64,000 nucleotides of DNA from Sneathiellales bacterium (GTDB taxonomy: Bacteria; Pseudomonadota; Alphaproteobacteria; JANQFL01). Position 1 is the stretch's first letter; each line of letters starts with the position of its first letter. The notes beneath the pieces are model-generated. The model was not told where the DNA came from, did no database searches, and saw only the letters and a program-made list of their open reading frames with translations. Where the stretch lies: positions 62,001 through 126,000 of the forward strand of contig JANQFL010000070.1 of assembly GCA_028277845.1 (NCBI GenBank). Reading direction: 5' to 3'. The translations under genes were made by a program, and so were the position numbers. Shown piece after piece: positions 40,389 to 59,480 of this stretch.

Positions 40389-42896
40389 ATGAAGAACGTC
40401 GCCGATATCTATCCCCTTTCGCCCATGCAGGAGACCATGCTGCTGCACGCGATCTCCCGGCCCGGCGACGATGTCCTGTTCAATCAGTTCGTCTACGAAA
40501 TTAACGGGGATTTGGATCAATCGGCCATGCGTGGCGCCTGGCAGGCACTCGTCGACAGGCACGCCATTCTGCGCTCCGCATTTGTATGGGAAGATGTCAA
40601 GCAACCGCTTCAGGTCGTCCGTATTTCGGTCGATCTGCCCTACCGGCAGTACGATTGGCGGCAAAAAGGCGGCGCCGAACGGGACACGGCTCTGGAAGCG
40701 CTGCTCGACGCGGATCGCGAAAGCGGGTTTGCCCTCGGTGAAGCCCCGCTGACCAGGCTGTGTGTCATCCGTATGGACGAGAACCGTCACGTCATGGTGT
40801 GGAGCAGCCACCACCTGCTGGTCGATCGCTGGTGTCTGGGGACATTGTTTACGGAACTGGCGGAACTTTACAACGCAAGCCGGTCCGGCCGTGCACCGCA
40901 GTTGAATGAAGCGCGGCCCTATCGGGACTATATCGGCTGGATTGCCCGCCAGGACGACAATGCGGGGCGGCAGTTCTGGCACCACCGCCTTGCCGGCATG
41001 AGGGAGCCGGTGCCGCTGACCACATGGTGCGGGAAAATCGATCAGCCGCGCGAACGCCAGGCGACGTTGACGCTGGACGACGACGTCCGTGCCGGATTGA
41101 CGGCGCTTTCCCGGCGGCTCGGCGTGACACCAAGTACCTTCCTGCAAGGTGCATGGGCGTTGACAATCAACCGCATAACCGGTCGGCAAGACGGCGCATT
41201 CGGCATCGTTACGTCCGGGCGGCCGCCCGACTTGCCGCACGTGGAAGGCATTGTCGGCACGTTCATCAACAATCTGCCCGTCCGTATGCGCATGCCGCGG
41301 CAAATGACGATGCAGAGTTGGCTCAAGGCATTGCAGGCCGAACAGCAGGCGCGCATGCCGTTTGAGCACGTTTCCCCGACCGACATTGATCTGATTGCCG
41401 GGTCCGCTCCCGGCAGCCGTCTGTTCGACAACTTGTTCCTCTGGCTCGCGGGCGAAGCGTTGCCGCAGTTCGACGGCATCTCGTTGCGCGCGGTGTCGGG
41501 AGACATGTCGACCGCGGTGCCGCTTACTCTGAGTGTTTCCGAAAACGACGAACTGGCGCTGGAGCTGCGCTGTCAGGCAGGGGTGGACACCGTGATGCCG
41601 TTCGACGACATCCTGCCTTGCCTGCTGAATGTGATGCAGGGACTGCTGGCCGCCGATCCTGCGGGCCCGCTGGCGGATCTACCGGGTTTCCGGCTGGATG
41701 CGGAGGAACCGGACGATATCCCGGCACCGGACTCGAAGGAAATTGCTGTCGCGGCAGCGTCCGGGGGAGGCGTGTCGCCGGCCAGCGAGGCTGTTCCCGG
41801 TGGGCGCGAAGCAGCGGATTACGAAACCATTCGGGATTTGATGACGGGTGCCTGGCAGGAGGTTCTTGGGAAAGTACACGTCGATGCCGACGACAACTTC
41901 TTCGATATCGGCGGTAACTCCATCCTGGCGGCACAACTGCACGCGCTTGCGGAGCGAAGGGTCGGAAAACGCATTCCGATGCTCGCTCTTTTCAAGGCGC
42001 CGACGATCCGCGACATGGCCAGAACCTTGGCGAACGACGAATGGCCCCTTAGCGGCCAGGTGATTACGCCGTTACGCACCCAGGGTACTTTGCCGCCGCT
42101 GTTCTGCATCTCATCACCCGAGGTTAATTCGGTCGGTTACGCATTGCTGGCACAGCACCTCAATCATGAGCGGCCCGTCTATGTCCTGCAGGCGCCGCCA
42201 CAGTCCGGCACCGTCACGAAGATATCCCCGAAAGCGTTGCCGGAATTGGCGAGCACTTACATTGCGGCCATGCGTGAAGTCCAGGAGGCGGGTCCATATC
42301 ACTTGCTGGGTATGTGTACGGGGTCGCACCTGGCGCATAGAATAGCGGTGCAGCTTGAAGCCGAAGGGCAGGCGGTTCCTTTCGTCGGAATCGTAAACAC
42401 CTGGGCGCTCAACACCATTTCCAAGTTTTACTACGTACAACGCGTGATTAACCGGTTGAGGTATTACCGCGGCAGACTCCGTGAATTGGCCCGTCAAAAG
42501 CCCAGCGAGCAACTGGCGGTATTGAGCCAGGTGGCGGCGCGGCGGTTTTCGCGTGCCGCACAGGCCGTTGCGCCAGTATCCGGATTTGGGGATGGCGCCA
42601 CGACCACTCCGTCTCCTGTTTCCGATGCATCACAGCGTGACGAATGGATCGAGGATGTTGGTTGGGCTACCGGCGACAACGATGCGCCGAAGTTCGGCGG
42701 TACGGTCACGGTTTTTCGTCTGCGGCGGCAAAGTTGGTGGCGGATCCGCGACAGGGGACTCGGCTGGGGCTTGCACGCCGATCATGTGGATATCATCGAT
42801 TGTCCTGGCGACAGTCACTTGACCATTCTACGCAATCCCAACGTCGGGTCGCTGGCCGAACGGCTGCAAGCGTCCCTGGTCGACATGACGCACTAG
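40389..42896 (+). CDS. NRPS terminal module: condensation - carrier - thioesterase (C-T-TE), no adenylation domain
   Basis: 835 aa. C domain residues ~5-430 with HHLLVDRW (H141, H142, D146). Carrier domain ~480-550, phosphopantetheine Ser511 in DIGGNSILA. Type I thioesterase ~565-830: the nucleophile elbow is G641-M-C643-T-G645, so Cys replaces the usual Ser; His810 lies in PGDSHLTIL; the usual acidic residue after the next strand is Asn670 in GIVNTW. There is no A domain, so the carrier is either loaded in trans or the C domain uses another acceptor. Although first in the operon, TE makes it the last biosynthetic step. Cys thioesterases are known for strained or unusual release (for example obafluorin beta-lactone). 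Confidence 0.9.
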   Translation: MKNVADIYPLSPMQETMLLHAISRPGDDVLFNQFVYEINGDLDQSAMRGAWQALVDRHAILRSAFVWEDVKQPLQVVRISVDLPYRQYDWRQKGGAERDTALEALLDADRESGFALGEAPLTRLCVIRMDENRHVMVWSSHHLLVDRWCLGTLFTELAELYNASRSGRAPQLNEARPYRDYIGWIARQDDNAGRQFWHHRLAGMREPVPLTTWCGKIDQPRERQATLTLDDDVRAGLTALSRRLGVTPSTFLQGAWALTINRITGRQDGAFGIVTSGRPPDLPHVEGIVGTFINNLPVRMRMPRQMTMQSWLKALQAEQQARMPFEHVSPTDIDLIAGSAPGSRLFDNLFLWLAGEALPQFDGISLRAVSGDMSTAVPLTLSVSENDELALELRCQAGVDTVMPFDDILPCLLNVMQGLLAADPAGPLADLPGFRLDAEEPDDIPAPDSKEIAVAAASGGGVSPASEAVPGGREAADYETIRDLMTGAWQEVLGKVHVDADDNFFDIGGNSILAAQLHALAERRVGKRIPMLALFKAPTIRDMARTLANDEWPLSGQVITPLRTQGTLPPLFCISSPEVNSVGYALLAQHLNHERPVYVLQAPPQSGTVTKISPKALPELASTYIAAMREVQEAGPYHLLGMCTGSHLAHRIAVQLEAEGQAVPFVGIVNTWALNTISKFYYVQRVINRLRYYRGRLRELARQKPSEQLAVLSQVAARRFSRAAQAVAPVSGFGDGATTTPSPVSDASQRDEWIEDVGWATGDNDAPKFGGTVTVFRLRRQSWWRIRDRGLGWGLHADHVDIIDCPGDSHLTILRNPNVGSLAERLQASLVDMTH

Positions 42897-43106: not shown

Positions 43107-44258
43107 ATGGATTTTGACTGGTCGGATGAACAGCTTAACTTTAAGGCCAGAGTTGTTGAGTTTGCGCGTCAGCAACTGAACAACGATACCGTTGAACGTG
43201 ATCGCAACGGTGCTTTCTCCTTGCAGGATTGGAAACGGAGTGCAGCGTTCGGTATTCAACGAATGTCCGTTCCGGCGGCGTATCACCAAGGAGACGAAAC
43301 AGATTTCCTGACCGCCATGCTGGCGATGGAGGGATTGGGATACGGGTGCAGGGACAACGGCCTGACCTTTGCGCTCAACGCGCAGATGTGGACCGTGCAG
43401 TTGCCGATCGTCCACTTTGGTACCGAGGCGCAAAAGGAAAAATACCTGCCCGGCCTCTGTTCCGGCGACTTGATCGGAGCGCATGCGATTACAGAACCCG
43501 ATGCGGGATCGGATGTTTTCAACATACGCACGACGGCGGAAAAGCAACCCGGTGGCGGGTACGTTTTGAATGGCGAAAAGCGTTATATTTCGTTGGCTCC
43601 CATTGCCGACATTGCACTTGTGTTCGCCACCATTGATCCGGACATCGGTAAGTGGGGTATCACGGCTTTTCTCGTCGATCTCAAGGCACCGGGCGTGCGC
43701 ACCGGCCCGGTGCGCGACAAGATGGGCCTGCGCACGGTCCCGATGGGCGATCTCTTTTTTGAGAATGTTCATTTGCCCGAAGAAGCCAGGCTCGGGAAAG
43801 ATGGCACGGGCCTCAGCCTATCCACGAATTCCCTGGAATGGGAGCGCTGCTGCATCCTGGCCAGCCAGCTGGGCGCCATGGAACGGCAGCTGGAAGAGTG
43901 CGTCGCCTTCGCCCGCGACCGCGAGCAGTTCGACCAGCCCATCGGCAAGTTCCAGTCCGTGGCCAACCGGATCGCCGACATGCGCCTGCGGCTCGAAACC
44001 TCGCGCCTGCTTCTCTACAAGGTGGCCTGGCTGAAAAGCGAAGGGCGGCCGGCGATGATGGAGGCAGCGCTGCTGAAACTGCATCTCAGCGAATGCTTCG
44101 TGGACTCGAGCCTCGATGCCATCCGTATCCACGGCGGGCACGGCTATATGAGCGAGGCGGAAATCGAACGCAATCTGCGCGACGGCATCGGCGGCACGAT
44201 CTATGCCGGCACGTCGGATATCCAGCGCAACATCGTGGCCGGTCTGTTGGGCCTGTAG
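43107..44258 (+). CDS. Acyl-CoA-dehydrogenase-like L-prolyl-carrier protein dehydrogenase (PltE/RedW type)
   Basis: 383 aa flavoprotein. Family parts: AHAITEPDAGSDVFNIRTTA, RDREQFDQPIGKFQSVANR, IRIHGGHGYMSEAEIERNLR. The catalytic base is in the isovaleryl-CoA-dehydrogenase position, LEWER (E244/E246), while the usual C-terminal Glu is Ala in IYAGTSDIQR. That combination, plus the following prolyl-type adenylation enzyme and free carrier, marks the enzymes that oxidise prolyl-S-carrier to pyrrole-2-carbonyl-S-carrier in pyoluteorin, undecylprodigiosin and coumermycin pathways. Needs FAD. The 3' neighbour starts after 24 bases. Confidence 0.85.
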   Translation: MDFDWSDEQLNFKARVVEFARQQLNNDTVERDRNGAFSLQDWKRSAAFGIQRMSVPAAYHQGDETDFLTAMLAMEGLGYGCRDNGLTFALNAQMWTVQLPIVHFGTEAQKEKYLPGLCSGDLIGAHAITEPDAGSDVFNIRTTAEKQPGGGYVLNGEKRYISLAPIADIALVFATIDPDIGKWGITAFLVDLKAPGVRTGPVRDKMGLRTVPMGDLFFENVHLPEEARLGKDGTGLSLSTNSLEWERCCILASQLGAMERQLEECVAFARDREQFDQPIGKFQSVANRIADMRLRLETSRLLLYKVAWLKSEGRPAMMEAALLKLHLSECFVDSSLDAIRIHGGHGYMSEAEIERNLRDGIGGTIYAGTSDIQRNIVAGLLGL

Positions 44259-44282: not shown

Positions 44283-45869
44283 ATGGCTTTCACTTTGCCG
44301 CAACTGGTCGACGAATGGGCGGAACGCACACCCGATGCCGACGCCATCGGCTTCCTCGGCGAACGCCTGACCTACGCCGAGTTGTCCAGGCGCTCCGACG
44401 CTCTGGCGCGCGCCCTAATCGACGCCGGCGTGCGGCGTACCGACCGGGTCGGCATCCACATGGACAAAAACCTGCACACGGCGGTGGCCATGTACGGCAT
44501 CATGAAGGCCGGCGCGGCCTATGTGCCGCTGGACCCCTCGGCGCCGCCGCAACGCACCGCCGGCGTGATAGGGGATTGCGGCATCCGCCACCTGATCACG
44601 GACGACGCCATGGCGGCCGGCCTGCGCGCCATGGCGGATGCGCTGCCGGACGCGATGTGCCTGATCGGCGTCACGCCGGACCGGGGCTTGCCGGGCCGCG
44701 CCATCCCGTGGGACGCGGTCGCCACCCTTGACGGCAGCACCGCCGCCTTGCCCGCCGTGATCGAGAACGATCTCGCCTATATCATTTACACCTCCGGCTC
44801 GACCGGCGTGCCCAAGGGCATCATGCACACCCATCACAGCGGCCTGAGCTTCGCCCGCTGGGCCGTGCGGGAATACGGCTTCCGCAACGACGACCGCTTG
44901 GGCAATCACGCGCCGCTGCATTTCGATCTGTCGATCCTGGACTTCTTCGCCGGTGCCCTGGCCGGCGCCGCCACTGTCTTGATACCGGAGGAATACACCC
45001 GGCTGCCGGCGAGCTACTCGAAACTGATCGCCGATCAGAGGATCACCGTGCTGTTCACGGTGCCGTTCGCCCTGATCCAGTTGCGCACCAAGGGCGTGCT
45101 GCACGACCGCGACCTGGGCGCGTTGCGCTGGATCCTGTTCGGCGGCGAGCCGTTTCCGACCAAGTATCTGCGCAAGCTGATGGCAGACCTGCCCCATGTC
45201 CGGTTCGACAACATCTACGGCCCGGCCGAAGTCAACGGCGTGACCCACTATGTCGTCACATCGGTGGGCGAGGATGACCAGTCCGTGCCCATCGGACCCA
45301 TCGCCGACATCGCCGAGGACCTGGTCGTGGATGACAACGACGAACCGGTCCCGGTGGGCGAAATCGGCGAACTGCTGGTGCGCACGCCGACCATGATGCA
45401 GGGCTATTGGGAGCGGCCTGAACTCAACGCCAAGGCGTTTTACCGGCGGCCCGTCAGCTCGACCTACGATCACGTGTTCTACCGCACCGGCGATCTGGTC
45501 CGCAAAGGCGCCGACGGCATTTTCGAGTTTCTCGGACGCAAGGACCGGCAGGTCAAGGTGCGCGGATACCGCGTCGAGCTGGACGAAACGGAAGCGGCGC
45601 TCGTGGCCGACGAAACCGTCGAGGAAGCGGCGGTGTTCGCCGTGCCGCTGGCGGACGGCACCCAGGAAATCCGCGCGGCCGTCATTCTGAACGGTGCGGC
45701 CGGGGCGACCAAGAACGAGTTGCTGAACGGACTGCGCGACCGCGTGCCCTGGTACGGCCTGCCGGCCGACCTGGTGATCCACGACAGTTTTCCGCGTACT
45801 TCGACGGGCAAGATCGACAGGAAGGTTCTCCGCGCGCAGGCCATGGAGAACATGGAAGAAACGGCATGA
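44283..45869 (+). CDS. Stand-alone adenylation enzyme, L-prolyl-AMP ligase type (PltF/RedM-like)
   Basis: 528 aa single A domain. Core motifs: LAYIIYTSGSTGVPKGIMHT, IYGPAEVNGVTHYVV, FYRTGDLVRKGADG, DRQVKVRGYRVELDE, RTSTGKIDRKVL. HFDLSILDFFAGALAGAATV and the rare GPAEVNGVTHY segment are characteristic of the proline activators that serve pyrrole-forming carriers. It would load L-proline on the carrier protein encoded next. Pocket positions read by eye as D-L-L at the first three. ATP-dependent, cytosolic. Separated by 24 bases from both neighbours, so the three genes form a compact starter set. Confidence 0.85.
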   Translation: MAFTLPQLVDEWAERTPDADAIGFLGERLTYAELSRRSDALARALIDAGVRRTDRVGIHMDKNLHTAVAMYGIMKAGAAYVPLDPSAPPQRTAGVIGDCGIRHLITDDAMAAGLRAMADALPDAMCLIGVTPDRGLPGRAIPWDAVATLDGSTAALPAVIENDLAYIIYTSGSTGVPKGIMHTHHSGLSFARWAVREYGFRNDDRLGNHAPLHFDLSILDFFAGALAGAATVLIPEEYTRLPASYSKLIADQRITVLFTVPFALIQLRTKGVLHDRDLGALRWILFGGEPFPTKYLRKLMADLPHVRFDNIYGPAEVNGVTHYVVTSVGEDDQSVPIGPIADIAEDLVVDDNDEPVPVGEIGELLVRTPTMMQGYWERPELNAKAFYRRPVSSTYDHVFYRTGDLVRKGADGIFEFLGRKDRQVKVRGYRVELDETEAALVADETVEEAAVFAVPLADGTQEIRAAVILNGAAGATKNELLNGLRDRVPWYGLPADLVIHDSFPRTSTGKIDRKVLRAQAMENMEETA

Positions 45870-45893: not shown

Positions 45894-46166
45894 ATGAGTG
45901 AAGGATCGGTTGCGGCGAAGCTCGGAGAATTCATTTCGGGCGAATTGCTGGGCAACAGGCCCGTGAACGGTGACGACAATCTGTTGGCCGCCGGCATGGT
46001 CAGTTCGCTGGGCATGGTACGGCTTGTCGCCTACATCCTCGACACCTTCGGCTACGACGTCCCGCCCGAGGACTTCACCATCGAGAATTTTCGCACCATC
46101 AACGACCTCGACGCCTATCTTCAGCAGGCGCTGAACGGGGAAGGGGCGGCGGCCGATGCCCCTTGA
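45894..46166 (+). CDS. Free-standing peptidyl carrier protein for the pyrrole starter (PltL/RedO type)
   Basis: 90 aa acyl-carrier fold. The phosphopantetheine Ser is S38 in GMVSSLGMV, where a Ser replaces the usual Asp of DSL. Ends LDAYLQQAL as in PltL-type carriers. It would carry prolyl, then pyrrole-2-carbonyl, and hand it to the C domain of the next protein. Its stop lies 11 bases inside the next gene, an overlap consistent with stoichiometric coupling of starter carrier and first elongation module. Confidence 0.87.
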   Translation: MSEGSVAAKLGEFISGELLGNRPVNGDDNLLAAGMVSSLGMVRLVAYILDTFGYDVPPEDFTIENFRTINDLDAYLQQALNGEGAAADAP

Positions 46167-49100
46167 GCAGGAAAGCAGCCTCGCCGATCTGTCCAATCTG
46201 ACCCACAGTCAGGTGCTGATTTGGACGGGGCAGCTTTTGGCTCCGGACGACCCGCTATACAACATGGTGCTGGCGTTCCGCATCGGTGGCGCAGTGGATC
46301 CGGTCGTTTTCCAACAGGCCTTTCAGCGGCTGGTGGACGACTGCGATGTCTTGCGGACGGTGATCACGACCGAGAAGGGGGTTCCGCAGCAGCGGGTGCT
46401 GCCGGAGTTCGCCTACGCGGTGCCGCTTATCGATTTCAGCCAGGATGCCGCCCCGGAGCAACGCTATGCCGAGTGGCTCGCGCGCAGCAAGCAGCGCACA
46501 TTCGATCTGTCGCGCTGTCATTTCGATACGGCACTCGTCAAGTTGGGTGATGACGACTTCGTCTGGTATCTGAACCAGCATCATGTCCTGACGGACGCGT
46601 GGTCCGTGTCCGTGCTGTACCGGAAAATGCAGCACTATTACGGGCTGGCGCGGCAGGGCAGGCTGGACCAGGCCGAACCGCTGCCGGCGTATCAGGATTA
46701 CGTTGCGCAGGACCGCCGGGACCGCCGGTCGGACCGGTACGCCAAGGCACAGGCCTTTTGGTCGGAGAAACTCAAAACGCCGGTGCCGCCGTCCAGCTTC
46801 TACCGCAGGCGCGGCAGCACGCGCAGTGGCCGGACCGTCCGGATCCCGTGCCGTTTGGGTGCGGAGCGAACGCGGCGGGTGCGTGCACTGACCGGGGACC
46901 GCGCATTCCAAGCCTTTACCCCGGATTTGGCGCTGTTCCAGATCTTCGCCACCGTGCTGTTCGCCTATCTGCACCGGCTGAGCGGACAGCGCGCCGTTTC
47001 CATCGGGGCGCCGGCCCACAACCGCACCACGGCGGAGCAACAGGAATCGGCCGGGCTGTTCATCGAAGTGTTTCCGTTGTCGGCCGAAATCGGGGAGGCG
47101 GACAGTTTCGCCGATTTGTACAGGACGGTCTCGGCGGACGCCCGGCATTTCCTGCTCAACGCGGTACCGGGCACCGGCGGAGCGGAGACCAATCGCGCTT
47201 TCGACGTGATTCTCAATTACATCACTGCCCGCTTCGGCGACTTCGACGGACTGCCCATGCGTTCCGAATGGGTCCATGCCGATCATGGCGACGCCAATCA
47301 TCTGCTGCGGCTGCAAGTGCAGGACTTCGATCAGACGGAAGATCTCGAACTGTATTTCGACCTCAACGAAGCGGTCTTCGTGAACGCGGAACGGCAATGG
47401 GTGGGCGATCATTTCCTGCGCTTGCTGGACGCGCTGCTCGACGACCCCGACACCGAGATCGCGTCCGTGCCGCTGTTGTCCGACGATGAATTCGGCCGGT
47501 TCGAGAGCGAAGTGAACGCGTCGCCGGACGTGCCGCCCGAAGGCGAGACGGTGATACAGATGTTCGAGGCGCAGGTAGCGAAAACGCCGCAGGCGACGGC
47601 ACTGAGGTGTGAGGACGCTGCCCTCACATATCAGGACCTCAACGCGCGCGCCAACCGCGTCGCCCACGACCTGAGCGGTCGCGGGATTGGTCCCGGCAAT
47701 ACAGCGGCCATTTCGATGATGCGGTCGGTGGATATGGTGGTGGCGATATTCGGCGTCCTGAAAAGCGGCGCCGCCTACGTGCCGGTGGACCCGGGATATC
47801 CCGCCGACAGGGTCGCCTATTTGCTGGAAAACTCGGGCGCCGACCTGATCATCGTCGACGACCATGCCGCCGGCATGATCCCCGCCATCGACGTGCCGGT
47901 GGCCAAGCTCGCCGATTTGGGAGACGTAGGCGATGCGGCCGCCACCGGCAATCCGCCAAACCGGGCGGGCTCCGATGACACGGCATACGTCATGTATACG
48001 TCCGGATCGACCGGGCGGCCCAAGGGTGTTGCCATCGGCCATGACGGGTTGGCCAATTACGTATCCTGGTGCAAGCGATTCTATCTGCGGGGCGACGTGC
48101 TCGATTTTCCCTTGTTCACGTCGTTCTCGTTCGACCTGACCGTCACGTCACTTTATGTCCCGCTGGTTTCGGGCGGCACGCTGGTCGTCTATCCCGAACA
48201 TCCGGACCGGCGTGACGTGGACGTGCAGAAAGTCGTGGAAGACAACGCCGTCGATATCGTCAAGCTGACTCCGGCACACCTGTCCGTCGTTCAGAACACG
48301 GATTTCAGCACCTCGAGAATCCGCGCGCTGATCGTCGGCGGGGAAGATTTCAAATCCGATCTCGCCCGGATCATCAACCGGCGCTTCGGTGGTGACGTTG
48401 AAATCTACAACGAATACGGCCCGACCGAGGCCACCGTCGCCTGCGCCATCCATCGTTTCGACCGCGACGACGATACCGGGTCCTCGGTTCCCATCGGCCG
48501 GTCCATCGACAACCTGCAGGCCTATGTTCTGGATGCGGCGCGCCATCCGGTTCCTCAGGGCGTGACGGGCGAGATCCATATCGGCGGCGCCGGCGTGGCG
48601 AAAGGCTATGTCAACAACGCGGATGAGACAGCGGAGCGGTTCGTCGCGAACCCGTTTCGGCCGGGACAGCGCCTGTACAAGACGGGAGATCTCGGACGGT
48701 GGAACCCCGACGGCCGGCTGGACTACCTCGGACGCGCGGACACCCAGGTCAAGATCCGCGGCATCCGCATGGAACTGACCGAAATCGAGGGCGCCATACT
48801 GACCCATCCCGACGTATCCGAAACGGCCGCCGCTGTTTTCGAGCAGCGGCAATCTCCGTTACGCGCCGAAGAACAGGACTACTGCGTCCGCTGCGGTTTG
48901 TCGGGCAATCATCCCAGTGCGCAACTCGACGGGGATTGTCTTTGCCGATTGTGCCGGGTGTTCGAGAGCCAACGCGATCTGGCGATGGACTATTTCGGAA
49001 CCATGAACGAGTTGCGGTCCATCGCGCAAGACGTGAAGGCCTCCGCCCAGGGTCCGCACGACTGCATCATGCTGCTGAGCGGCGGCAAGGACAGCACATA

Positions 49101-51756
49101 CGCGCTATGCCAGCTGGTCGACCTGGGCCTGAAGCCGCTGGTCTTCTTTCTCGATAACGGCTTCATATCCGACGGTGCGAAGGCCAATATCCGCCGTATC
49201 GTCGACCAGTTGGGCCTGGATCTGCATGTCGGATCGACACCCGCCATGAACGACATATTCGTCGACAGCCTGAAACGGTTCAGCGACGTCTGCGACGGAT
49301 GCTTCAAGACCATCTACACGTTGAGCATGAACCTGGCGCGCGAGAAGGGCATCCGGTACATCTTCACCGGTTTGTCGCGCGGCCAGATCTTCGATACCCG
49401 GGTCGCGGATTTCTTCAATCAGCGGATCTTCGATCCCGATGAAATCGACCGCATGGTGATCGAGGCGCGCAAGGCGTACCACCGCATGGATGATGTGCCG
49501 TGCCGGAAACTGGACGTCGCGATGTTCAAGGACGATGCGGTGTTCGAAGAAATCCGCTTCGTCGATTTCTACCGCTACAGCGATGTATCGCTGGAAGGTA
49601 TTTTTGACTACCTCGACACCAAGGTGCCTTGGATCCGTCCGCTGGATACGGGCCGGTCCACCAACTGCCTGATCAACAAGGCCGGTATCCATGTTCACAC
49701 CAACGAACGGCGGTTCCACAACTACTCGTCGCCCTACAGTTGGGATGTCCGGCTGGGACACAAGAAAAGGGACGAGGCGCTTGCGGAACTGCAGGACGAC
49801 ATTGCGCCGGCCGAGGTGTACGACATCCTCCAGACCATAGGGTACCGAAGCGAAATCGCGGCCGCCGAGGACAAGCGACTGGTGGCCTACTATGTATCGC
49901 CGGTTCGGCTGCCCGCCGGGGAACTGGAGCGTCATCTGGCCGCCAAGCTCCCATCCGAATTCGTGCCCAAGGACTTCGTCCGGCTCGACAGCCTTCCTCT
50001 GACCGCCAATGGAAAGGTCGATCGCAGGGCACTGCCCGAGCCGGATGACGGGACCGGCGAACGGCCGGGCACGTTTATCGCCCCGGGCACGGAGACCGAA
50101 AAGGCCCTGGCCAGGATCTGGCGGCAGGTTCTGGGCTTGGATGATATCGGTATCCACGACGATTTCTTTGCCCTGGGGGGCGATTCGATTCACGGCATTC
50201 AGATCGTCAACCAGGCGCGGCGTGTCGGCCTGACGATCAATCCGCAACAAATCTTCGATCATCCCACCATTGCCGAGCTGGCCGCCGCCGCCGGGTCGGT
50301 GGCCGTCCGGCAGGCCGAGCAGGGCGCGGTCACCGGCCTCGTCGCACTGACACCGGCGCAGCGCCGGTTTTTCGATCAGCACGGTCCCGATCCCGAACCG
50401 TACAGCCAGGCCGTTTTGCTCGAAATCGAAGACGGCCTGGATATCGCGACGCTTGAAAACGCCATCCGTGAGGTCCTCGTCCATCATGATGGCCTACGAT
50501 GCAGTTTTTCGCGTACGGAATTGGGATGGCATGGTGTGCTGCATGACATCGACACGGCCGCGATTGCCATCGATTGGGTCGACCTGATCGGAACGCCGCC
50601 GGATGGGATCAGGGCCGCCATCGACCGGCATGCCCGGTCGGTCCACAAGACCCTCGACATCGGTGCGGCACCACTGTTCCGGGCGTGCCGTTTTTCGACG
50701 CCGGAAGGCGGCCCCGACTTGCTTCTCTTCATCGTCCATCACCTTGTGATCGACGGATTGTCCTGGCGGATCATGCTCGAAGACCTGGAAACGGCCTGCG
50801 AACAACTGATCGCGGGGCGCCGGGTCCGGCTGCCGGCCAAAACGGCATCACAGAAGGACTGGACCGAGGCTTTGCAGGACTACGCCTTTTCGGACGAACT
50901 GCGGGAGGAAACAGCCTATTGGACCAACACCACCGACGTGAATGCGGCGCTTCCGGGCCAATTGCCCCCGGGAACAGTCGACCGGCACGTGGAAGCGAGC
51001 ACCGTTTCCGCCGCCCTGACCAGGGATGAGACCCGTCAACTGATACACGATCTGCCGCAAGCCCTGGATATCCGCCTGCCCGAGGTTTTGGCGACGGCCT
51101 TGGCGCAGTCCTTCGCGGACTGGGCGGGCAGGGATGGCATCCTTGCCGATTTTGAAGGCCATGGCCGGGAGGCGATCGCCGACGGCCTGGATCTTCTGCG
51201 CTCGGTCGGATGGTTCACGTCCGTGTATCCCGTTGGCCTGCAATTGGGGCACTGCACCGGGTCCGTAGCGGCGATGAATGCGGTCAAGCGGCAGTTCCGG
51301 TCCGTTCCGAACCGGGGCATCGGGTATGGCGTGTTGCGTTACCTGGCGGGTGACAACGGAGCCCGCACCGCGCTGGAGCAACGCCCACAAGCGGACCTTT
51401 TGTTCAATTTCCTTGGCCACTGGGACAAAACGATTTCGGCGGAATCCAGGTTCCGGTTCACCGGGCCGGTTTATGTGTATTGGGGAGACGACAGCCGGCG
51501 CGCCTATGCGCTGGAGGCCAATGCGGCGGTGTTTGACGGCGCGTTCGTCATCGACTGGACGTTCAACGAGCGGCGTCACGCGCGCGCCGAGATCGAACGG
51601 TTTTCCGATACCTACATGCACCATCTGCGCCGCTTGATTGCCGACGGTGTGCGGGGAAGCGCCGAGGACCGGGCGGAGCCGGATTTCTCGCACGCCGACC
51701 TCGATGAACAGGGAATGGCCGATGTGCTCGCAGAATTCGGTCAGGACGCGGATTGA
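46156..51756 (+). CDS. NRPS elongation module C - A (interrupted by a PP-loop ATPase domain) - T - E
   Basis: 1866 aa. C ~15-430 (HHVLTDAWS, H142/H143, D147). A core ~463-890: YTSGSTGRPKGVAIGH, IYNEYGPTEATVACA, YKTGDLGRWNPDGR, QVKIRGIRMELTEIE. Residues ~905-1235 are a foreign domain: zinc-ribbon-like CVRCGL...CLCRLC, PP-loop SGGKDST (975-981), CDGC (1046-1049). A9-A10 resumes ~1240 with LPLTANGKVDRR. T: Ser1344 in LGGDSIHG. E ~1390-1800: HHLVIDGLSW, FEGHGREA, VGWFTSVYPV. Pocket by eye D-L-T-K-I-G-E-V-A, close to asparagine codes. The insert resembles N-acetyl-sugar amidotransferases (WbpG), which convert an amide into an amidine. Accepts pyrrole-carbonyl and yields a D-residue. Confidence 0.9.
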   Translation: MPLEQESSLADLSNLTHSQVLIWTGQLLAPDDPLYNMVLAFRIGGAVDPVVFQQAFQRLVDDCDVLRTVITTEKGVPQQRVLPEFAYAVPLIDFSQDAAPEQRYAEWLARSKQRTFDLSRCHFDTALVKLGDDDFVWYLNQHHVLTDAWSVSVLYRKMQHYYGLARQGRLDQAEPLPAYQDYVAQDRRDRRSDRYAKAQAFWSEKLKTPVPPSSFYRRRGSTRSGRTVRIPCRLGAERTRRVRALTGDRAFQAFTPDLALFQIFATVLFAYLHRLSGQRAVSIGAPAHNRTTAEQQESAGLFIEVFPLSAEIGEADSFADLYRTVSADARHFLLNAVPGTGGAETNRAFDVILNYITARFGDFDGLPMRSEWVHADHGDANHLLRLQVQDFDQTEDLELYFDLNEAVFVNAERQWVGDHFLRLLDALLDDPDTEIASVPLLSDDEFGRFESEVNASPDVPPEGETVIQMFEAQVAKTPQATALRCEDAALTYQDLNARANRVAHDLSGRGIGPGNTAAISMMRSVDMVVAIFGVLKSGAAYVPVDPGYPADRVAYLLENSGADLIIVDDHAAGMIPAIDVPVAKLADLGDVGDAAATGNPPNRAGSDDTAYVMYTSGSTGRPKGVAIGHDGLANYVSWCKRFYLRGDVLDFPLFTSFSFDLTVTSLYVPLVSGGTLVVYPEHPDRRDVDVQKVVEDNAVDIVKLTPAHLSVVQNTDFSTSRIRALIVGGEDFKSDLARIINRRFGGDVEIYNEYGPTEATVACAIHRFDRDDDTGSSVPIGRSIDNLQAYVLDAARHPVPQGVTGEIHIGGAGVAKGYVNNADETAERFVANPFRPGQRLYKTGDLGRWNPDGRLDYLGRADTQVKIRGIRMELTEIEGAILTHPDVSETAAAVFEQRQSPLRAEEQDYCVRCGLSGNHPSAQLDGDCLCRLCRVFESQRDLAMDYFGTMNELRSIAQDVKASAQGPHDCIMLLSGGKDSTYALCQLVDLGLKPLVFFLDNGFISDGAKANIRRIVDQLGLDLHVGSTPAMNDIFVDSLKRFSDVCDGCFKTIYTLSMNLAREKGIRYIFTGLSRGQIFDTRVADFFNQRIFDPDEIDRMVIEARKAYHRMDDVPCRKLDVAMFKDDAVFEEIRFVDFYRYSDVSLEGIFDYLDTKVPWIRPLDTGRSTNCLINKAGIHVHTNERRFHNYSSPYSWDVRLGHKKRDEALAELQDDIAPAEVYDILQTIGYRSEIAAAEDKRLVAYYVSPVRLPAGELERHLAAKLPSEFVPKDFVRLDSLPLTANGKVDRRALPEPDDGTGERPGTFIAPGTETEKALARIWRQVLGLDDIGIHDDFFALGGDSIHGIQIVNQARRVGLTINPQQIFDHPTIAELAAAAGSVAVRQAEQGAVTGLVALTPAQRRFFDQHGPDPEPYSQAVLLEIEDGLDIATLENAIREVLVHHDGLRCSFSRTELGWHGVLHDIDTAAIAIDWVDLIGTPPDGIRAAIDRHARSVHKTLDIGAAPLFRACRFSTPEGGPDLLLFIVHHLVIDGLSWRIMLEDLETACEQLIAGRRVRLPAKTASQKDWTEALQDYAFSDELREETAYWTNTTDVNAALPGQLPPGTVDRHVEASTVSAALTRDETRQLIHDLPQALDIRLPEVLATALAQSFADWAGRDGILADFEGHGREAIADGLDLLRSVGWFTSVYPVGLQLGHCTGSVAAMNAVKRQFRSVPNRGIGYGVLRYLAGDNGARTALEQRPQADLLFNFLGHWDKTISAESRFRFTGPVYVYWGDDSRRAYALEANAAVFDGAFVIDWTFNERRHARAEIERFSDTYMHHLRRLIADGVRGSAEDRAEPDFSHADLDEQGMADVLAEFGQDAD

Positions 51757-51770
51757 CGGGGCGGCGGGAC

Positions 51771-54596
51771 ATGTCACGGGATAACAACATACAGGCCGTC
51801 CGCCGGCTGACCCCGATCCAGGAAGGCATTCTTTTTCATACCCTGGAGGCCAAGCGCAGCGGCGTTTATTTCGAGCAGTACAGTTGCCTGTACGAGGGAC
51901 GGGTGGACACCGACAGATTGCGGCGGGCATGGTTTAGGGTTGTCGAGAGGCACGAAGTGCTGCATACCCTGTTTACCTGGGAAGGCCGCGACAAACCGCT
52001 GCAGATCGTGCGTCATACGGTGCCGTTGCCGTGGGAGGAACTGGACTGGCGCGATGCCGACGAGCATGAAGCCGCCGAGCGCTGGCAAGATTTCCTCGAC
52101 CGCGACCGCGCGCGCGGTTTCGAGCTGGACAAGGCGCCGCTGATCCGCCTGACCCTGGTGCGGGTGGCGGACGACCGCTACCGGTTTCTGTGGTCGTTTC
52201 ATCATCTGCTGATCGATGGCTGGTCGATGCGGCTGATCCTCAACGAAGTGACGGCGCTGTATGCCGGCGGCGACGGGTCCAGCCCGTTGCCCAGACCGCG
52301 ATCCTTCGGCGATCTGATCGCGTGGATGGAGGGTCAGGACACCGCGAAACAGGAAGCCTTCTGGACCGACGCGTTGAGCGGGTTCACCGAACCGACGTCC
52401 CTGTCGGCCATTGTCGGAAGCCAACAATTGCCCGTTTCCGGGCATCCGCACGACACGCAGGAAACCGTTCTCGACGCATCGCTGACCGCGCAGGTCCGCG
52501 CATTCGCCCGGGCCGAGCGCCTGACGTTGAACACCGTTCTTCTGGGGGCCTGGTCGCTGGTTCTCGGCCGTTACTGCGACAGGGCGGATGTGGTGTTCGG
52601 GACCACGGTGTCGGGCCGGCCGGCGGAACTGGATGGCGTCGACGGCATCGCCGGCATGTTCATCAATACGCTGCCATTGCGTGTTGACATTCCGGAAAAC
52701 GAGACGCCTGGCGCCTGGCTGTCGCGGCTGCAGGCCAGACAGATGGCCATGCGTGCCCATGAGCAGACGTCGCTGGCGGCGGTGCAGCGCTGGAGCGACG
52801 TTCCCGCGGGTTCGGCGTTGTTCGAAAGCATATTCGTTTTCGAAAACTTCCCCGAAAAAGCGGCGGGCGGTGCGCTGGTGCCCGAGCTGTACCCGCGGGA
52901 TGAACGGTACATCGAGTACAGCAATTATCCGCTGGCCATTTTGGCGGTGCCGGGCGAACAGATACGGCTGATTGCGGTCCACGATCCGGCCATATTCACG
53001 GCTGAGACGGCGAAACGGCTGCTGGAGAACTTGGCCACGGCGGTGGCCTCTCTGACCGCCGCCGCAACGGAGACGGTGTCGGCCGTCACCATCGTGCCGG
53101 CAGCCGAAAGGACGCGGCTGCTGGAGCAGTGGAACCGGACCGCGGCACCCTATCCGTCCGACCGGTGTATCCATCATCAGATCGAGCATTTCGCCCGGAC
53201 CACGCCGGATGCCGTCGCCTTGGCCGATACCGGGACGGCGGTCAGCTATGACGAATTGGACTCCAGAGCCAACCGGTTGGCCGTATTGCTGCAGAGCCGG
53301 GGGATCGGTGTCGGTGCCATCGTGCCCGTGTTTCTGGACCGCGGCATCGATGCAATAGTCGCCATGCTCGCCGTTCTGAAAGCCGGTGGTGCCTATGTCC
53401 CGCTCGACCCGACATTCCCGAAGGACCGTATTCGTCACATTCTCGAGGACATTGCGGCGGCAGACACGGGCCGGACCGGGCAACTGATCGTTCTGAGCAA
53501 CGTCGCGCTCTCGCACAATCTCCCAACGTCGGTTGTCGAGCCCGTCTGCCTCGACGACGGCGATCTTCCGTCCGATACCGGTCCGTTTGTCGAACCCGGT
53601 GTCACGCCGGACGACCTGGCCTATGTCATATACACCTCCGGGTCGACGGGACGGCCGAAAGGCGTCATGGTCACGCACCGGAATCTGGTCAACTCGACCC
53701 ACGCGAGACACGCGTTCTTCGGGGAACCGCTGTCGTCCTTCCTGCTGCTCTCTTCCCTGGCGACCGACAGTTCGGTCGCGGGCACGTACTGGGCGCTCTG
53801 CTCCGGTGCAAGCCTGGTCCTGCCGCCCCGACGCATCGAACAGGACATACCGGCCTTGACCGACCTGGTCGCCCGCCGGCAGGTCTCGCACTATCTCTGT
53901 GTGCCATCGCTGCATGCACTCATTCTCGAGCACAGTTCGGCTGATCGGCTTGCAAGCTTGAAGGGCGTCATGGTTGCGGGTGAGGCATGCACCGAAGATG
54001 TGGTGCTGAACCACTACACCGCACTGCCCGACGTGACTTTGTACAACGAATACGGACCAACCGAAGCAACCGTCTGGGCAACCGGGTGCACGTTGAAACC
54101 GGGCGAACCGGTGAGTATTGGCCGCCCCATCGCGAATACGACGGCGTACGTACTGGATTCCCATCAGCGCTTGTTGCCGGCCGGCGTACCGGGTGAGTTG
54201 TGCATCGGCGGCGTCAACGTGGCCCGGGGGTATCTCAATCAACCGGAACTCACGGCCGAGCGTTTCATTACCGACCGCTACGCGGACGATCATGGTGCGC
54301 GGCTCTATCGAACCGACGATCTGGTGCGGCACCGGGAGGACGGCACCATCGTGTTTCTGGGCCGGGTCGACAATCAGGTCAAGATCCGCGGTTTCCGCGT
54401 CGAACCGGAGGAAATCGAACGAGTCATCCTGGAATGCGGAGCGGTGAGCGAGGCTGCCGTCATTGCCACGGGGACCGGTTCGGACGGCGCCGACCCCACG
54501 GCACTGCTGTCGCAGTTGCAGGCGATGCCATCCGACGAGGCCGAACGACTGCTCACCGAAATCGAAACGCTGGAGATGGAGGCGGCGGCGATATGA
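51771..54596 (+). CDS. NRPS C - A core (adenylation domain lacking its C-terminal subdomain)
   Basis: 941 aa from the ATG at 51771 (a TTG at 51753 overlaps the previous stop). C domain ~10-440 opens VRRLTPIQEGILFHTL, a pattern fitting a D-residue donor, with HHLLIDGWS (H144/H145, D149). A core ~465-890: YTSGSTGRPKGVMVTH, VTLYNEYGPTEATVWATG, RTDDLVRHREDG (TGDL altered), QVKIRGFRVEPEEIE (A8). It then ends with an acidic helix (LLTEIETLEMEAAAI) instead of A9-A10. The missing subdomain opens the protein encoded two genes on, with a methyltransferase between: an interrupted A domain split into separate genes. Pocket by eye D-S-A-L-M-A-E-V-W; no confident substrate. Confidence 0.9.
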   Translation: MSRDNNIQAVRRLTPIQEGILFHTLEAKRSGVYFEQYSCLYEGRVDTDRLRRAWFRVVERHEVLHTLFTWEGRDKPLQIVRHTVPLPWEELDWRDADEHEAAERWQDFLDRDRARGFELDKAPLIRLTLVRVADDRYRFLWSFHHLLIDGWSMRLILNEVTALYAGGDGSSPLPRPRSFGDLIAWMEGQDTAKQEAFWTDALSGFTEPTSLSAIVGSQQLPVSGHPHDTQETVLDASLTAQVRAFARAERLTLNTVLLGAWSLVLGRYCDRADVVFGTTVSGRPAELDGVDGIAGMFINTLPLRVDIPENETPGAWLSRLQARQMAMRAHEQTSLAAVQRWSDVPAGSALFESIFVFENFPEKAAGGALVPELYPRDERYIEYSNYPLAILAVPGEQIRLIAVHDPAIFTAETAKRLLENLATAVASLTAAATETVSAVTIVPAAERTRLLEQWNRTAAPYPSDRCIHHQIEHFARTTPDAVALADTGTAVSYDELDSRANRLAVLLQSRGIGVGAIVPVFLDRGIDAIVAMLAVLKAGGAYVPLDPTFPKDRIRHILEDIAAADTGRTGQLIVLSNVALSHNLPTSVVEPVCLDDGDLPSDTGPFVEPGVTPDDLAYVIYTSGSTGRPKGVMVTHRNLVNSTHARHAFFGEPLSSFLLLSSLATDSSVAGTYWALCSGASLVLPPRRIEQDIPALTDLVARRQVSHYLCVPSLHALILEHSSADRLASLKGVMVAGEACTEDVVLNHYTALPDVTLYNEYGPTEATVWATGCTLKPGEPVSIGRPIANTTAYVLDSHQRLLPAGVPGELCIGGVNVARGYLNQPELTAERFITDRYADDHGARLYRTDDLVRHREDGTIVFLGRVDNQVKIRGFRVEPEEIERVILECGAVSEAAVIATGTGSDGADPTALLSQLQAMPSDEAERLLTEIETLEMEAAAI

Positions 54597-55384
54597 CGAA
54601 ACGGCTCAAACGCCACCGCGACTTCGAAATCTCGGTGCAGATCAAAAACGACGACTTCATTCGGCCGCCCCGCGACGCGCAACGCAATTGGTTGTTGAAC
54701 GGGACCTTGAACGAGTTTTCGGACAACTTGCTGGCGCTGAATACCCTGGCGCGCCGCTATGTGCCGGGTTCGGATGCGCTGCCCACAGGCGATCGAAGCC
54801 AGGCCGTGATGCACGATGAAGACATCATGGAAGACTGGCAACTGCCGCTGATGCAGGCCATGGCCGAGGGGGTGACCGAGGGTCACGGCCATGTGCTGGA
54901 AATCGGTTTTGGGCGCGGCGCCGCATCCACCATGATCCAGCGGTGCGGCGTCGAAAGCCACACCATTATCGAATGCAACGACTCCATCGTCGGACGTTTC
55001 AATACCTGGAAGGACGACTATCCGGGACGGGATATCAAAATGGTGCACGGCATGTGGCAGGATACCCTGCCGTCCCTCGGCACCTTCGACGGCATATTCT
55101 TCCACACCTATCCGCTGAACGAAGCCGAATTCGTCGAGCAGATCGGCGAAAGCACCACGTTTGCGGAGCATTTCTTCGAACATGCGGCGCAGCACTTGGT
55201 GGACGGCGGGCGTTTCACCTATCTGTCCAACGAAATGGATTCCCTGAGCCGGACTCACCAGCGGCTGCTGTTCCGTTACTTCGATCGCATCTCGATCCGG
55301 ATCGTCGAGAACCTGAACCTGCCGGAGACTGTCAGGGACGCCTGGTGGGCCGATTCGATGGCCGTTGTCGTGGCGTTCAAGTAG
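54593..55384 (+). CDS. SAM-dependent N-methyltransferase, guanidinoacetate/arginine type (GAMT/RMT2-like)
   Basis: 263 aa, start in ATGA overlap with the preceding stop after a clear GGAGG. Features strikingly like guanidinoacetate methyltransferase: DIMEDWQLPLMQAMA, SAM loop VLEIGFGRGAAST, SHTIIECNDSIVGRF, HGMWQDTLPSLGTFDGIFF, HTYPLNEAEF and GGRFTYLSNEMD. That family methylates guanidino nitrogens. It occupies exactly the gene position where interrupted adenylation domains carry an embedded methyltransferase (between A8 and A9), so it probably assembles with the A halves on each side and methylates a guanidino or amidino side chain of a carrier-bound residue. Cytosolic. Confidence 0.87.
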   Translation: MTKRLKRHRDFEISVQIKNDDFIRPPRDAQRNWLLNGTLNEFSDNLLALNTLARRYVPGSDALPTGDRSQAVMHDEDIMEDWQLPLMQAMAEGVTEGHGHVLEIGFGRGAASTMIQRCGVESHTIIECNDSIVGRFNTWKDDYPGRDIKMVHGMWQDTLPSLGTFDGIFFHTYPLNEAEFVEQIGESTTFAEHFFEHAAQHLVDGGRFTYLSNEMDSLSRTHQRLLFRYFDRISIRIVENLNLPETVRDAWWADSMAVVVAFK

Positions 55385-55388
55385 GCGG

Positions 55389-57410
55389 ATGATGGGTATG
55401 GAAACGACGGAGCGCACTTTGCAGGAACGGCTGAACGCCCTGTCGCCCGGGCAACGCGCCGAACTGGCGCGCCGGTTGTCCGGCAACGCCGGTCCGCGGC
55501 GGACGGAGCGGGACGCCCTGATCGCCTTTGTGGTCGGCCGGAACGGGGCGGTGGACGAAGACGCCGTGCGGGCGCGTCTGCGCGACCGTCTGCCCGACTA
55601 CATGGTGCCGCGCGATATCGTGGTGCTCGACTCGCTGCCGCGGCTGCCCAACGGCAAGATCGACCGCAACGCCTTGCATGCCGTCGATTGGACGCAACCG
55701 GAACCCGACGGGAGCGACATCGTCGCGCCGCGAAACGAGGCCGAACGGACCTTGTCGGATATATGGTGCGATGTGCTCGGACTCGACAGCGTCAGCATCC
55801 ATGACGATTTTTTCGAAGTCGGCGGCGATTCGTTGATCAGTATCCGTATTCTTTCGCGCGCCAATCAGGCCGGCTTGAAAATCAGACCCGAGCTGTTCTT
55901 CGAATATCCGACCATCGCCGGGCAAGCGGCCGCCTCCGGCGGGGCTACGGTCGTCACAGCCGAACCCGGCCTGGTGACGGGCACGATGCCTTTGATGCCT
56001 ATACAGCACTGGTTCTTCGAGAGAATTCCGGTCGATCCCCAACAGTGGAACCAGTCGGCGCTGTACACCGCGCCGGAAGGGTTCAGCGCCGACCGTCTGG
56101 AACGCAGCGTTCAGCATCTGATGAAGCATCACGATGCCCTGCGTCTGCGGTTCCCAATGGCCGGCGGGAAACGCCAAGCGACGTTCGATGACATGCCGGC
56201 GGAGCTGCCCGTGGTGCACGTCGACCTGTCCGGCGCCGATCCATCCGACGTCGAGGGCGAGATCGTGAAAACCGCCGAAAAGTATCATGCCCGGTTCGAT
56301 CTCGAGACCGGTCCGCTGGTCTGTTTTGTCCATTTCACCCTACCGGCCGGGCAGGACGCAAAAGTCCTTGTCATCGTGCATCATCTACTGGTTGATGCCG
56401 TTTCCTGGTGTTTGCTCAGCGAGCACTTCGACTTGATTTGTGGTCAGATTATGAGCGGCGAGGCCATCGCCCTGCCGGACAAGACAACGTCGCTTCAACA
56501 GTGGGCGATGCGGCTGAAGAACCGGGCTGAAGCACAGGACATCCAGTCGGAAGCCGCTTACTGGCGCGGCAACCTTGCCGAGGAAGGCGATCGGCTGCCG
56601 ACGGATTTTCCCGCGGAGGTCACCGACAATCGTTTTGCCGATACCGAGTATGTGTCCCGGTCCCTGGATGAGGAGGCGACGCAAACCCTGTTGCAGGACG
56701 TCTGCCAACGGCACAGGGCGCAAATCGACGAAATCCTGATGGCCGCGCTCGCCGGCACGGTCTGTGCCTGGACCGGGCGACCATCGGTGACATTCGATCT
56801 GGAGGGGCATGGCCGGGAGGCCATGTTCGACGACATGGATGTGTCGCACACCGTCGGTTGGTTTACGACCGTCTTTCCGGTGCGTATCGCGCTGGGGCAA
56901 AGCGACGAAACGGCCGACCATCTTGCCTCGGTCAAGGACCGGTTGCGCCGGATCGCCAATGGCGGCATCGGATACGGCTTGCTGCGGGACATGATGCCGG
57001 GCACGGAGATATCCGACGCGCTTCGCCAAGCGCCCAGGTCCGAACTGCTGTTCAACTATCTTGGACAGGTGGATTTGCTGGCCGGCGAGTTGAAGCATCT
57101 GCGGCTGGAAGACGACCAGTTTACGGCGGCGCGCAGTCCTCGCGGCATCCGAGCCTACGTTCTTGAAGTCAATGCGCGGATATCGTGCGGTAGGCTCCGG
57201 GTGGATTGGTCCTACGCTTCGCGTTTGCACAACCGTGACACCGTATTGGGGCTGGCGAACGATTTCATGGCGCGCCTGCAATCGTTGATCGGTTCGCACG
57301 GAGAGGAATCGCAACCCGTGGTGACCGCCGCCGATTTCCCGCTCGCAAACCTCGATCAAGACGAATTCGCCGCATTGGCGCAACTGCTCGACGAAGACAA
57401 TAAACAATAG
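55389..57410 (+). CDS. NRPS A C-terminal subdomain - T - E
   Basis: 673 aa from the ATG at 55389; ATGs at 55392 and 55398 are alternatives. Residues 1-45 form a short helical linker (LNALSPGQRAELARRLSG). Residues ~50-100 are the adenylation C-terminal subdomain with RLRDRLPDYMVPRDIVVLDS and A10 LPRLPNGKIDRNAL, whose Lys completes the active site of the core encoded two genes upstream. Carrier domain: Ser148 in VGGDSLIS. E domain ~200-640: HHLLVDAVSW (H331/H332, D336), LEGHGREAMF, VGWFTTVFPV, GGIGYGLLRD, FNYLGQ. It completes module two and gives a second D-residue, handed to the C-T-TE protein. Confidence 0.88.
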   Translation: MMGMETTERTLQERLNALSPGQRAELARRLSGNAGPRRTERDALIAFVVGRNGAVDEDAVRARLRDRLPDYMVPRDIVVLDSLPRLPNGKIDRNALHAVDWTQPEPDGSDIVAPRNEAERTLSDIWCDVLGLDSVSIHDDFFEVGGDSLISIRILSRANQAGLKIRPELFFEYPTIAGQAAASGGATVVTAEPGLVTGTMPLMPIQHWFFERIPVDPQQWNQSALYTAPEGFSADRLERSVQHLMKHHDALRLRFPMAGGKRQATFDDMPAELPVVHVDLSGADPSDVEGEIVKTAEKYHARFDLETGPLVCFVHFTLPAGQDAKVLVIVHHLLVDAVSWCLLSEHFDLICGQIMSGEAIALPDKTTSLQQWAMRLKNRAEAQDIQSEAAYWRGNLAEEGDRLPTDFPAEVTDNRFADTEYVSRSLDEEATQTLLQDVCQRHRAQIDEILMAALAGTVCAWTGRPSVTFDLEGHGREAMFDDMDVSHTVGWFTTVFPVRIALGQSDETADHLASVKDRLRRIANGGIGYGLLRDMMPGTEISDALRQAPRSELLFNYLGQVDLLAGELKHLRLEDDQFTAARSPRGIRAYVLEVNARISCGRLRVDWSYASRLHNRDTVLGLANDFMARLQSLIGSHGEESQPVVTAADFPLANLDQDEFAALAQLLDEDNKQ

Positions 57411-58698: not shown

Positions 58699-58741
58699 TG
58701 GGCGGCAGGCGGCGACTTTCGCGGACGGGGACCCATTAGGC

Positions 58742-59422
58742 ATGGGTCACGCGCCGAAACTGCTGCTGGCGTCCCTGCTCGTTTGTTTTCTGGGACTCGC
58801 CCTGCTCGGTTTCAAGGCCCTGGGGACGTACCGGATCGACTGGTTGGCGGCTCGAACGCTCTTGCCGGCGCAATCGGACGCCGTGGTGAATGCCGAATTT
58901 GTCGCGCAGGTCGGCGGATTCCACGAGGTCGTCATCGAGTACGATTCGGTGCTGCCCGAGCGGCAGTTGACGGAACGGTTGACGCGGACCGGCGACCAGG
59001 CGGCCAGCGACGTGTCCTGGACGGTGACCAAGGACGGGCAACCGTTTGCCGCCGGCGGCAGCAACCGGTTGCTGTACAGTTCGTCCGGCGGCCGGACCGG
59101 TTTGGGCCGGATCAAACGGTGGCTGCTCAGCATCCCGTTTCACAGGGATGGCGCCTCGTTCATCCAGGTCGTCGGCCGGTTCCGTGCCTCGCCGGACTCA
59201 CGCTACGCGCTTGCCGCGGAGTTGCGTTCGATCGACCCGGTATTTGTGAAAGCGCGGGCACGGATGGCCGTCCGGCCCGGGCGGGAACTCTGGAACGACC
59301 ACCACGGCTCGACCGTGGCTATTGCCTATGCGGGACTGGCGTTTGTCGCATTGGGCCTTGTACTGGGAGGGCTGGCGATCCTGATGGTGCTGTATGTTCG
59401 GTTGAGACCGGCCGTGACGTAG
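58742..59422 (+). CDS. Hypothetical bitopic membrane protein
   Basis: 226 aa, family not recognised. One hydrophobic segment at the N-terminus (LLLASLLVCFLGLALLGF) and one near the C-terminus (VAIAYAGLAFVALGLVLGGL) flank a ~160-residue domain rich in beta-type alternation, presumably extracytoplasmic. Found between HupE/UreJ and HTTM-like genes and spaced 43 and 58 bases from them, so probably part of the same membrane complex. Confidence 0.7.
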   Translation: MGHAPKLLLASLLVCFLGLALLGFKALGTYRIDWLAARTLLPAQSDAVVNAEFVAQVGGFHEVVIEYDSVLPERQLTERLTRTGDQAASDVSWTVTKDGQPFAAGGSNRLLYSSSGGRTGLGRIKRWLLSIPFHRDGASFIQVVGRFRASPDSRYALAAELRSIDPVFVKARARMAVRPGRELWNDHHGSTVAIAYAGLAFVALGLVLGGLAILMVLYVRLRPAVT

Positions 59423-59480
59423 GGACGCCGCCGGTGCCGGCGGTTTGCCGGAACCGCCGGGTGGAAGGGGGAAAGACGCG

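Follow-up and report, generated by a model that had tools for sequence, protein, structure and literature searches.

A PP-loop ATPase domain embedded at the A8/A9 site of an asparagine-type adenylation domain, a possible in-cis amide-modifying enzyme of pyrrolyl peptide pathways

Introduction

Interrupted adenylation (A) domains of nonribosomal peptide synthetases (NRPSs) host a second domain within their fold, and the guests listed in the openly licensed papers are methyltransferases, oxidases, ketoreductases and monooxygenases (PMC11355689, PMC8097286). In TioS, KtzH and McyA, a methyltransferase sits between motifs A8 and A9 of an A domain that is otherwise complete, and is presumed to tailor the carrier-bound residue in cis. 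The NRPS described here (named N1) shares the site, the otherwise complete A domain and the presumed in-cis tailoring with these proteins, but its guest is a PP-loop ATPase, of a type known to exchange an amide oxygen for sulfur or nitrogen.

The closest described relatives of the guest are the N-acetyl sugar amidotransferases WbpG, WbuX and LpNASAT (TIGR03573; PDB 8wex). They have in common with it the tetracysteine zinc ribbon, which binds Zn in LpNASAT (PMC10607449), the SGGKDS PP-loop, profile-profile similarity over the full length and the best fold match. Unlike these enzymes, the insert is embedded in an A domain, scores below the family cut-off, has no HisF/HisH nearby and is diverged in its C-terminal half; it also has an invariant CXXC-C motif, which most sampled family members lack.

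A PP-loop together with CXXC-C is a published signature of the tri-Cys [4Fe-4S] sulfur insertases (PMC9283937). Among them, CtaC, the thioamide synthetase of closthioamide, makes thioamides on carrier-bound substrate only, and changes of its cluster cysteines lower the activity (PMC6772006). Compared by its published layout (D77, C154xxC157, C284; PMC6772006), CtaC resembles the insert in being a PP-loop ATPase with the [4Fe-4S]-type CXXC-C motif, the spacing to the third cysteine being 127 in that layout versus 122 in the insert. In contrast to the insert, CtaC is a separate protein that acts with carrier proteins in a pathway without NRPS. [4Fe-4S] LarE and TtuA also combine the PP-loop with CXXC-C, and the CXXC of the insert aligns column for column with that of LarE; however, both act on nucleotides or tRNA rather than on amino acids bound to a carrier, and the third cysteine of LarE is closer to its CXXC.

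Results

Domain architecture of N1

The window, that is, the whole 64,000-nucleotide stretch of Sneathiellales contig JANQFL010000070.1 that was analysed, encodes N1 (46156-51756, + strand; 1866 aa) in an ORF that is open throughout, with no interruption. Its layout, derived from Pfam and sequence motifs, is condensation (C), Asn-type A with the PP-loop insert, carrier (T) and epimerisation (E) domain. The Pfam domains are Condensation in two stretches, AMP-binding at residues 470-818, AMP-binding_C from residue 1240 only and PP-binding at residues 1317-1378. The A-domain core (47563-48846, +; residues 470-897) reaches up to A8, with the motif VKIRG at residue 865. The A domain resumes at residue 1240 with the strand KRLVAYYVSP, and this C-terminal subdomain (49873-50034, +) contains the A10 lysine (NGKVD, residue 1285). 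The T domain of module 1 follows (50104-50289, +; Pfam), and the final C-like domain is of the epimerisation type (50338-51654, +), based on Pfam and on the E-type motif HHLVIDGLSW.

The core and the C-terminal subdomain of the A domain thus flank a second domain of about 340 residues (48847-49872, +; residues 898-1239), as in interrupted A domains of the A8/A9 type. The preliminary description of this DNA had located an insert between A8 and A9-A10, at the site used by the methyltransferases of other interrupted A domains; its coordinates proved right, and the motif positions in N1 support the assignment of the site. In agreement with this, the guest is positioned between the pair of strands flanking the site in an AF2 model of the A domain plus the insert (pLDDT 84.5, pTM 0.59). 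We regard the architecture and homology described here as virtually certain.

Motifs, family and fold of the insert

Three elements were identified in the insert: a tetracysteine zinc-ribbon motif (C910xxC913...C930xxC933, with CVRCG at residue 910; 48883-48954, +), the PP-loop SGGKDS (residues 975-980, read as SGGKDST from residue 975; 49078-49095, +) and a CXXC-C triad. The first two cysteines of the triad lie in CDGC (residues 1046-1049; 49291-49302, +), and the third, the invariant C1171 (49666-49668, +), lies in STNC (residues 1168-1171). CDGC had been singled out before and is indeed found at residue 1046, but it represents a variant form of CXGC, which is itself invariant and with which the further invariant cysteine 1171 is grouped.

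When analysed alone (48835-49872), the insert matched no Pfam family. It did match NCBIfam TIGR03573 (WbuX, N-acetyl sugar amidotransferase) with an E-value of 6e-31 over profile positions 2-320 of 344, and both the tetracysteine motif and the SGGXDS PP-loop of the members are present in it. The family expected from the preliminary description is the closest one, but the score of 108.1 bits remains under the curated cut-off of 203.2 bits. The AF2 model of the insert alone (pLDDT 93, pTM 0.91) gave the N-acetyl sugar amidotransferase 8wex as the first Foldseek match in the PDB (1e-9, TM ~0.6), followed by asparagine synthetase, YcfA (which we take to be a 6-thioguanine biosynthesis enzyme), TtuA, NcsA and [4Fe-4S] LarE. 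HHalign aligned the insert with NASAT over the full length (E 5e-36) and with LarE over 121 columns (E 5e-14), CXXC falling on CXXC and the spacing from PP-loop to CXXC being 71 in both; of these two, NASAT is the nearer. The profile match, HHalign and the fold search together bear out the proposed PP-loop and zinc-ribbon make-up and the homology to WbpG/WbuX. Judged by these comparisons, the nearest relatives of the insert by descent are amidotransferases.

Substrate code and neighbouring genes

In N1, the interrupted A domain has the specificity code DLTKIGEVC; all 18 members have either this code or DLTKVGEVC, and Roseovarius has DLTKVGEVG. DLTK[LI]GEVG is what we take to be the asparagine code, and by this reading the interrupted A domains are Asn-type in every embedded case examined, so that a primary carboxamide would be present on the loaded residue.

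Upstream of N1 are a C-T-thioesterase release protein (40389-42896, +; Pfam) and an acyl-CoA dehydrogenase (43107-44258, +) nearest to the prolyl-PCP dehydrogenases PigA/RedW of pyrrole formation, although its scores of 405 and 370 bits do not reach the equivalog cut-offs. A stand-alone adenylation enzyme, presumed to activate proline (44283-45869, +), and a free-standing carrier protein of 90 aa, presumably the carrier of a pyrrolyl starter (45894-46166, +), complete the region. The combination of a stand-alone A enzyme, an acyl-CoA dehydrogenase and a carrier protein is the one that converts proline into pyrrole-2-carboxyl starters. Counterparts of the 90-aa carrier are an equally long ORF in the corresponding gap of cluster L015 and an annotated phosphopantetheine-binding protein in the Roseovarius cluster. 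Across the clusters, the NRPS with the interrupted A domain usually adjoins the pyrrole-forming genes (proline A, acyl-CoA dehydrogenase, PCP) and HupE, and the HupE-like, dehydrogenase and ProA genes are found again in most of them. An ornithine cyclodeaminase-family gene (3096-4217 in cluster L016) that the cyanobacterial and Verrucomicrobiaceae clusters share may be the source of proline for the pyrrole starter.

Downstream of module 2 runs a series of membrane-protein genes (57487-62431), comprising HupE/UreJ, two proteins without Pfam matches and one with a DCC1-like domain; it recurs in part in other clusters and possibly serves export or metal handling. The HupE/UreJ-family protein (57487-58698, +) is conserved in the clusters, a second membrane protein (58742-59422, +) has a homologue in the Verrucomicrobiaceae cluster L026, and a third (59445-61169, +) has homologues in L010 and in L020, where the gene lies between the halves of a split A domain. 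An aminotransferase-like protein (62470-63693) scores against MppQ and GntC, enzymes of cyclic-guanidine amino acids, its best score being for a MocR-type regulator; its gene was not seen among those shared by other clusters.

The split A domain of module 2

The A domain of the second module is distributed over three genes at the A8/A9 site (51753-57410), a feature absent from the preliminary description. The first piece (51753-54596, +) consists of a C domain and an A core with the code DSASMAEVW, and ends about 70 aa past A8; across clusters, the module 2 code is of the DSACIAEVW type. Exactly at the break lies a guanidinoacetate-N-methyltransferase homologue (54593-55384, +; PDB 3orh, 1e-21), which overlaps the preceding stop codon as ATGA. 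The third piece (55390-57410, +; Pfam, TIGR01720) resumes with the C-terminal subdomain of the A domain, followed by T and E domains.

Five other clusters have an A domain split likewise. L010 and L011 show the same break with the same methyltransferase gene, and the Leptolyngbya clusters L016, L017 and L020 have another methyltransferase and a glycosyltransferase between the A-domain halves. In L013, the A core and the methyltransferase form a fusion, although the contig stops before A9, and in L012 and L014 the A domain of module 2 is whole. A sequencing frameshift was considered as the cause of the break and rejected, because of the ATGA overlap, the same break in all five clusters and the other genes between the cyanobacterial halves. 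The A8/A9 site thus both takes up guests and is the point at which the gene is broken.

Distribution and conservation of the architecture

A scan of GTDB contigs revealed 17 relatives of the insert with 47-65% identity, which we assign to Pseudomonadota, Gemmatimonadota, Nitrospirota, Cyanobacteriota, Actinomycetota, Acidobacteriota, Desulfobacterota and Verrucomicrobiota. Every one of the 17 copies is embedded in an NRPS ORF (1155 to 2005 aa) with a lengthwise match to N1, and the insertion is thus not a product of chance. A further copy, on a Roseovarius plasmid, belongs to a 2697-aa NRPS whose layout reads C-A-T-C-A-T-TE. The insert occupies the same A-domain site in the 17 relatives and in the Roseovarius copy, so the architecture does recur elsewhere, and the named strains with it include Leptolyngbya PCC 7375, Roseovarius pelagicus and Desulfosediminicola flagellatus. 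The architecture is rare within any single phylum. One of 398 genomes sampled from the window's own phylum gave a strong match, the window's own genome (557 bits), the next best reaching 93 bits over positions 2-167 only; one of 292 cyanobacterial genomes matched, the seed genome itself.

C1046, C1049 and C1171 (A2 positions C140, C143 and C265) and SGGKDS are invariant in 18/18 inserts, and the motifs ARKAYHR and HNY..P.WxVR.GH vary little or not at all among the eight phyla. In a maximum-likelihood tree of 45 WbuX and 16 insert rows, the latter including Streptomyces and Roseovarius, the inserts group in a single clade (100/100) distant from the sugar enzymes, with a stem that measures 2.4 changes per site; the tree program warns of long branches meeting.

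A Streptomyces plasmid has the PP-loop domain (43% identical) at the N-terminal end of a condensation-type protein of 726 aa, which is encoded after a complete A-T protein and asnB. The cysteine triad is intact in this copy (CNGC, SSNC), and the domain is therefore presumably able to work outside an A domain. The locus (L059, 14190-20112, Streptomyces sp. NBC_01216) has a gene for tyrosine 2,3-aminomutase at a distance of about 10 kb and is apparently a different natural-product cluster employing the same domain.

Discussion

The features above suggest that the insert probably activates some amide oxygen in cis on the carrier. Our leading reading, to which we assign a probability of about 40%, is that it is an in-cis Asn-amide-activating domain with sulfur as the incoming atom, i.e., a thioamide synthetase. 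The A domain of N1, with its code and integrity, would load Asn, the C domain would add the pyrrole-2-carbonyl starter, and the carrier-bound pyrrolyl-Asn would then reach the insert. As throughout the superfamily, ATP would adenylate an amide oxygen, most simply that of the Asn side-chain carboxamide or else that of the pyrrole-CO-NH amide. A [4Fe-4S] cluster on C1046, C1049 and C1171, predicted from the triad and from CtaC, would hold the sulfide that displaces O-AMP to give the thioamide. Finally, the E domain would invert the residue, and module 2, made of three separate proteins, would add the second one.

The combination of SGGXDS and CXXC-C, the signature of [4Fe-4S] sulfur insertases of the CtaC/TtuA/TtcA/LarE type, is present in 18/18 inserts, and because PP-loop sulfur insertases use this triad, sulfur insertion is at least as likely as amidotransfer. 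HisF/HisH genes were located in the vicinity of 34 of 50 ordinary WbuX loci and of none of the NRPS loci searched, which also makes us lean towards sulfur. A point against sulfur is that the insert-NRPS clusters showed no gene for a sulfur donor, although the CtaC gene cluster likewise has no sulfur-mobilising gene (PMC6772006). The Streptomyces copy, encoded beside the A-T protein and asnB, counts for the Asn-amide reading.

We had considered CXXC-C as near-proof of sulfur insertion, and have toned this claim down. Most WbuX proteins sampled have no triad, but a CWHC-type minority has CXXC and a later cysteine, and in L130 (8984-11578) the gene of such a CWHC-type sugar amidotransferase with the triad has hisH and hisF immediately behind it. 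For this reason, the matter is not settled by the triad alone. The L130 case also raises the question of Fe-S cluster binding by some sugar amidotransferases.

The same L130 gene speaks for an embedded amidotransferase, in which ATP would adenylate an amide oxygen, either in carrier-bound Asn or in the pyrrole-Asn amide, and ammonia would replace it to form an amidine. This was the reading of the preliminary description, and the WbpG/WbuX homology on which it was built holds: the family is the closest by the TIGR03573 profile, by full-length profile-profile alignment and by fold, and shares the zinc tetracysteine motif (PMC10607449). The function does not follow from it, however, given the score below the curated cut-off, the triad, the separate long-stem clade and the HisF/HisH-free NRPS loci, where no other glutaminase was identified among the shared neighbours either. 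Furthermore, a sensitive profile matched the ordinary WbuX proteins of the 398 genomes in the N-terminal half only (at most positions 2-171). Collectively, we consider an amidotransferase rather unlikely.

A dehydrating activation is likewise doubtful, and slightly the more so. Here, the adenylated Asn carboxamide would lose AMP to give a nitrile (beta-cyanoalanine), or a neighbouring amide nitrogen would close a ring. ATP-dependent amide-to-nitrile enzymes exist, one of them for an NRPS product (PMC13060819), and no external donor would be necessary, in agreement with clusters lacking donor genes. QueC is the commonest weak Pfam match among the inserts (17/18 members, best 1e-6) and nitrile synthetase is among the weak PDB matches of the insert; however, QueC is matched in the PP-loop region that the whole superfamily shares, the fold search points to NASAT, YcfA and TtuA instead, and the invariant triad would be left without an obvious role. 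That the insert is catalytically idle or structural, the A domain alone doing the work, is very improbable: interrupted A domains do tolerate foreign domains at A8/A9 (PMC11355689), but eight phyla show full or almost full conservation of the PP-loop, the zinc ribbon, the triad and motifs such as ARKAYHR and HNY..P.WxVR.GH, and in Streptomyces the domain is retained at the N-terminal end of a separate protein.

The known A8/A9 guests are mostly methyltransferases, and a PP-loop guest would extend the in-cis repertoire of NRPSs by the conversion of amides to thioamides (or amidines, or nitriles). Thioamides are exceedingly rare among known nonribosomal peptides (PMC6772006). For engineers, the clusters offer a natural portable guest domain and an A domain that is apparently used despite the gene being cut at the hinge. 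Because the architecture is present in named strains, both the product and the reaction are directly testable.

In the openly licensed papers searched, we found no description of a PP-loop domain within an A domain, consistent with the preliminary description, which knew of no characterised NRPS with this insert. Since it also occurs in about 20 bacteria of eight phyla, the arrangement is probably the signature of modified peptides that form an unknown family. On the whole, we think it reasonably probable that these pathways yield pyrrolyl-Asn nonribosomal peptides of a widespread and undescribed family, and that their A domains have their own amide-oxygen-replacing PP-loop enzyme, which may form thio-Asn or amidino-Asn in cis. 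In the same pathways, a second A domain is split into separate proteins at the same hinge, and the A8/A9 site would thus serve both domain capture and gene fission.
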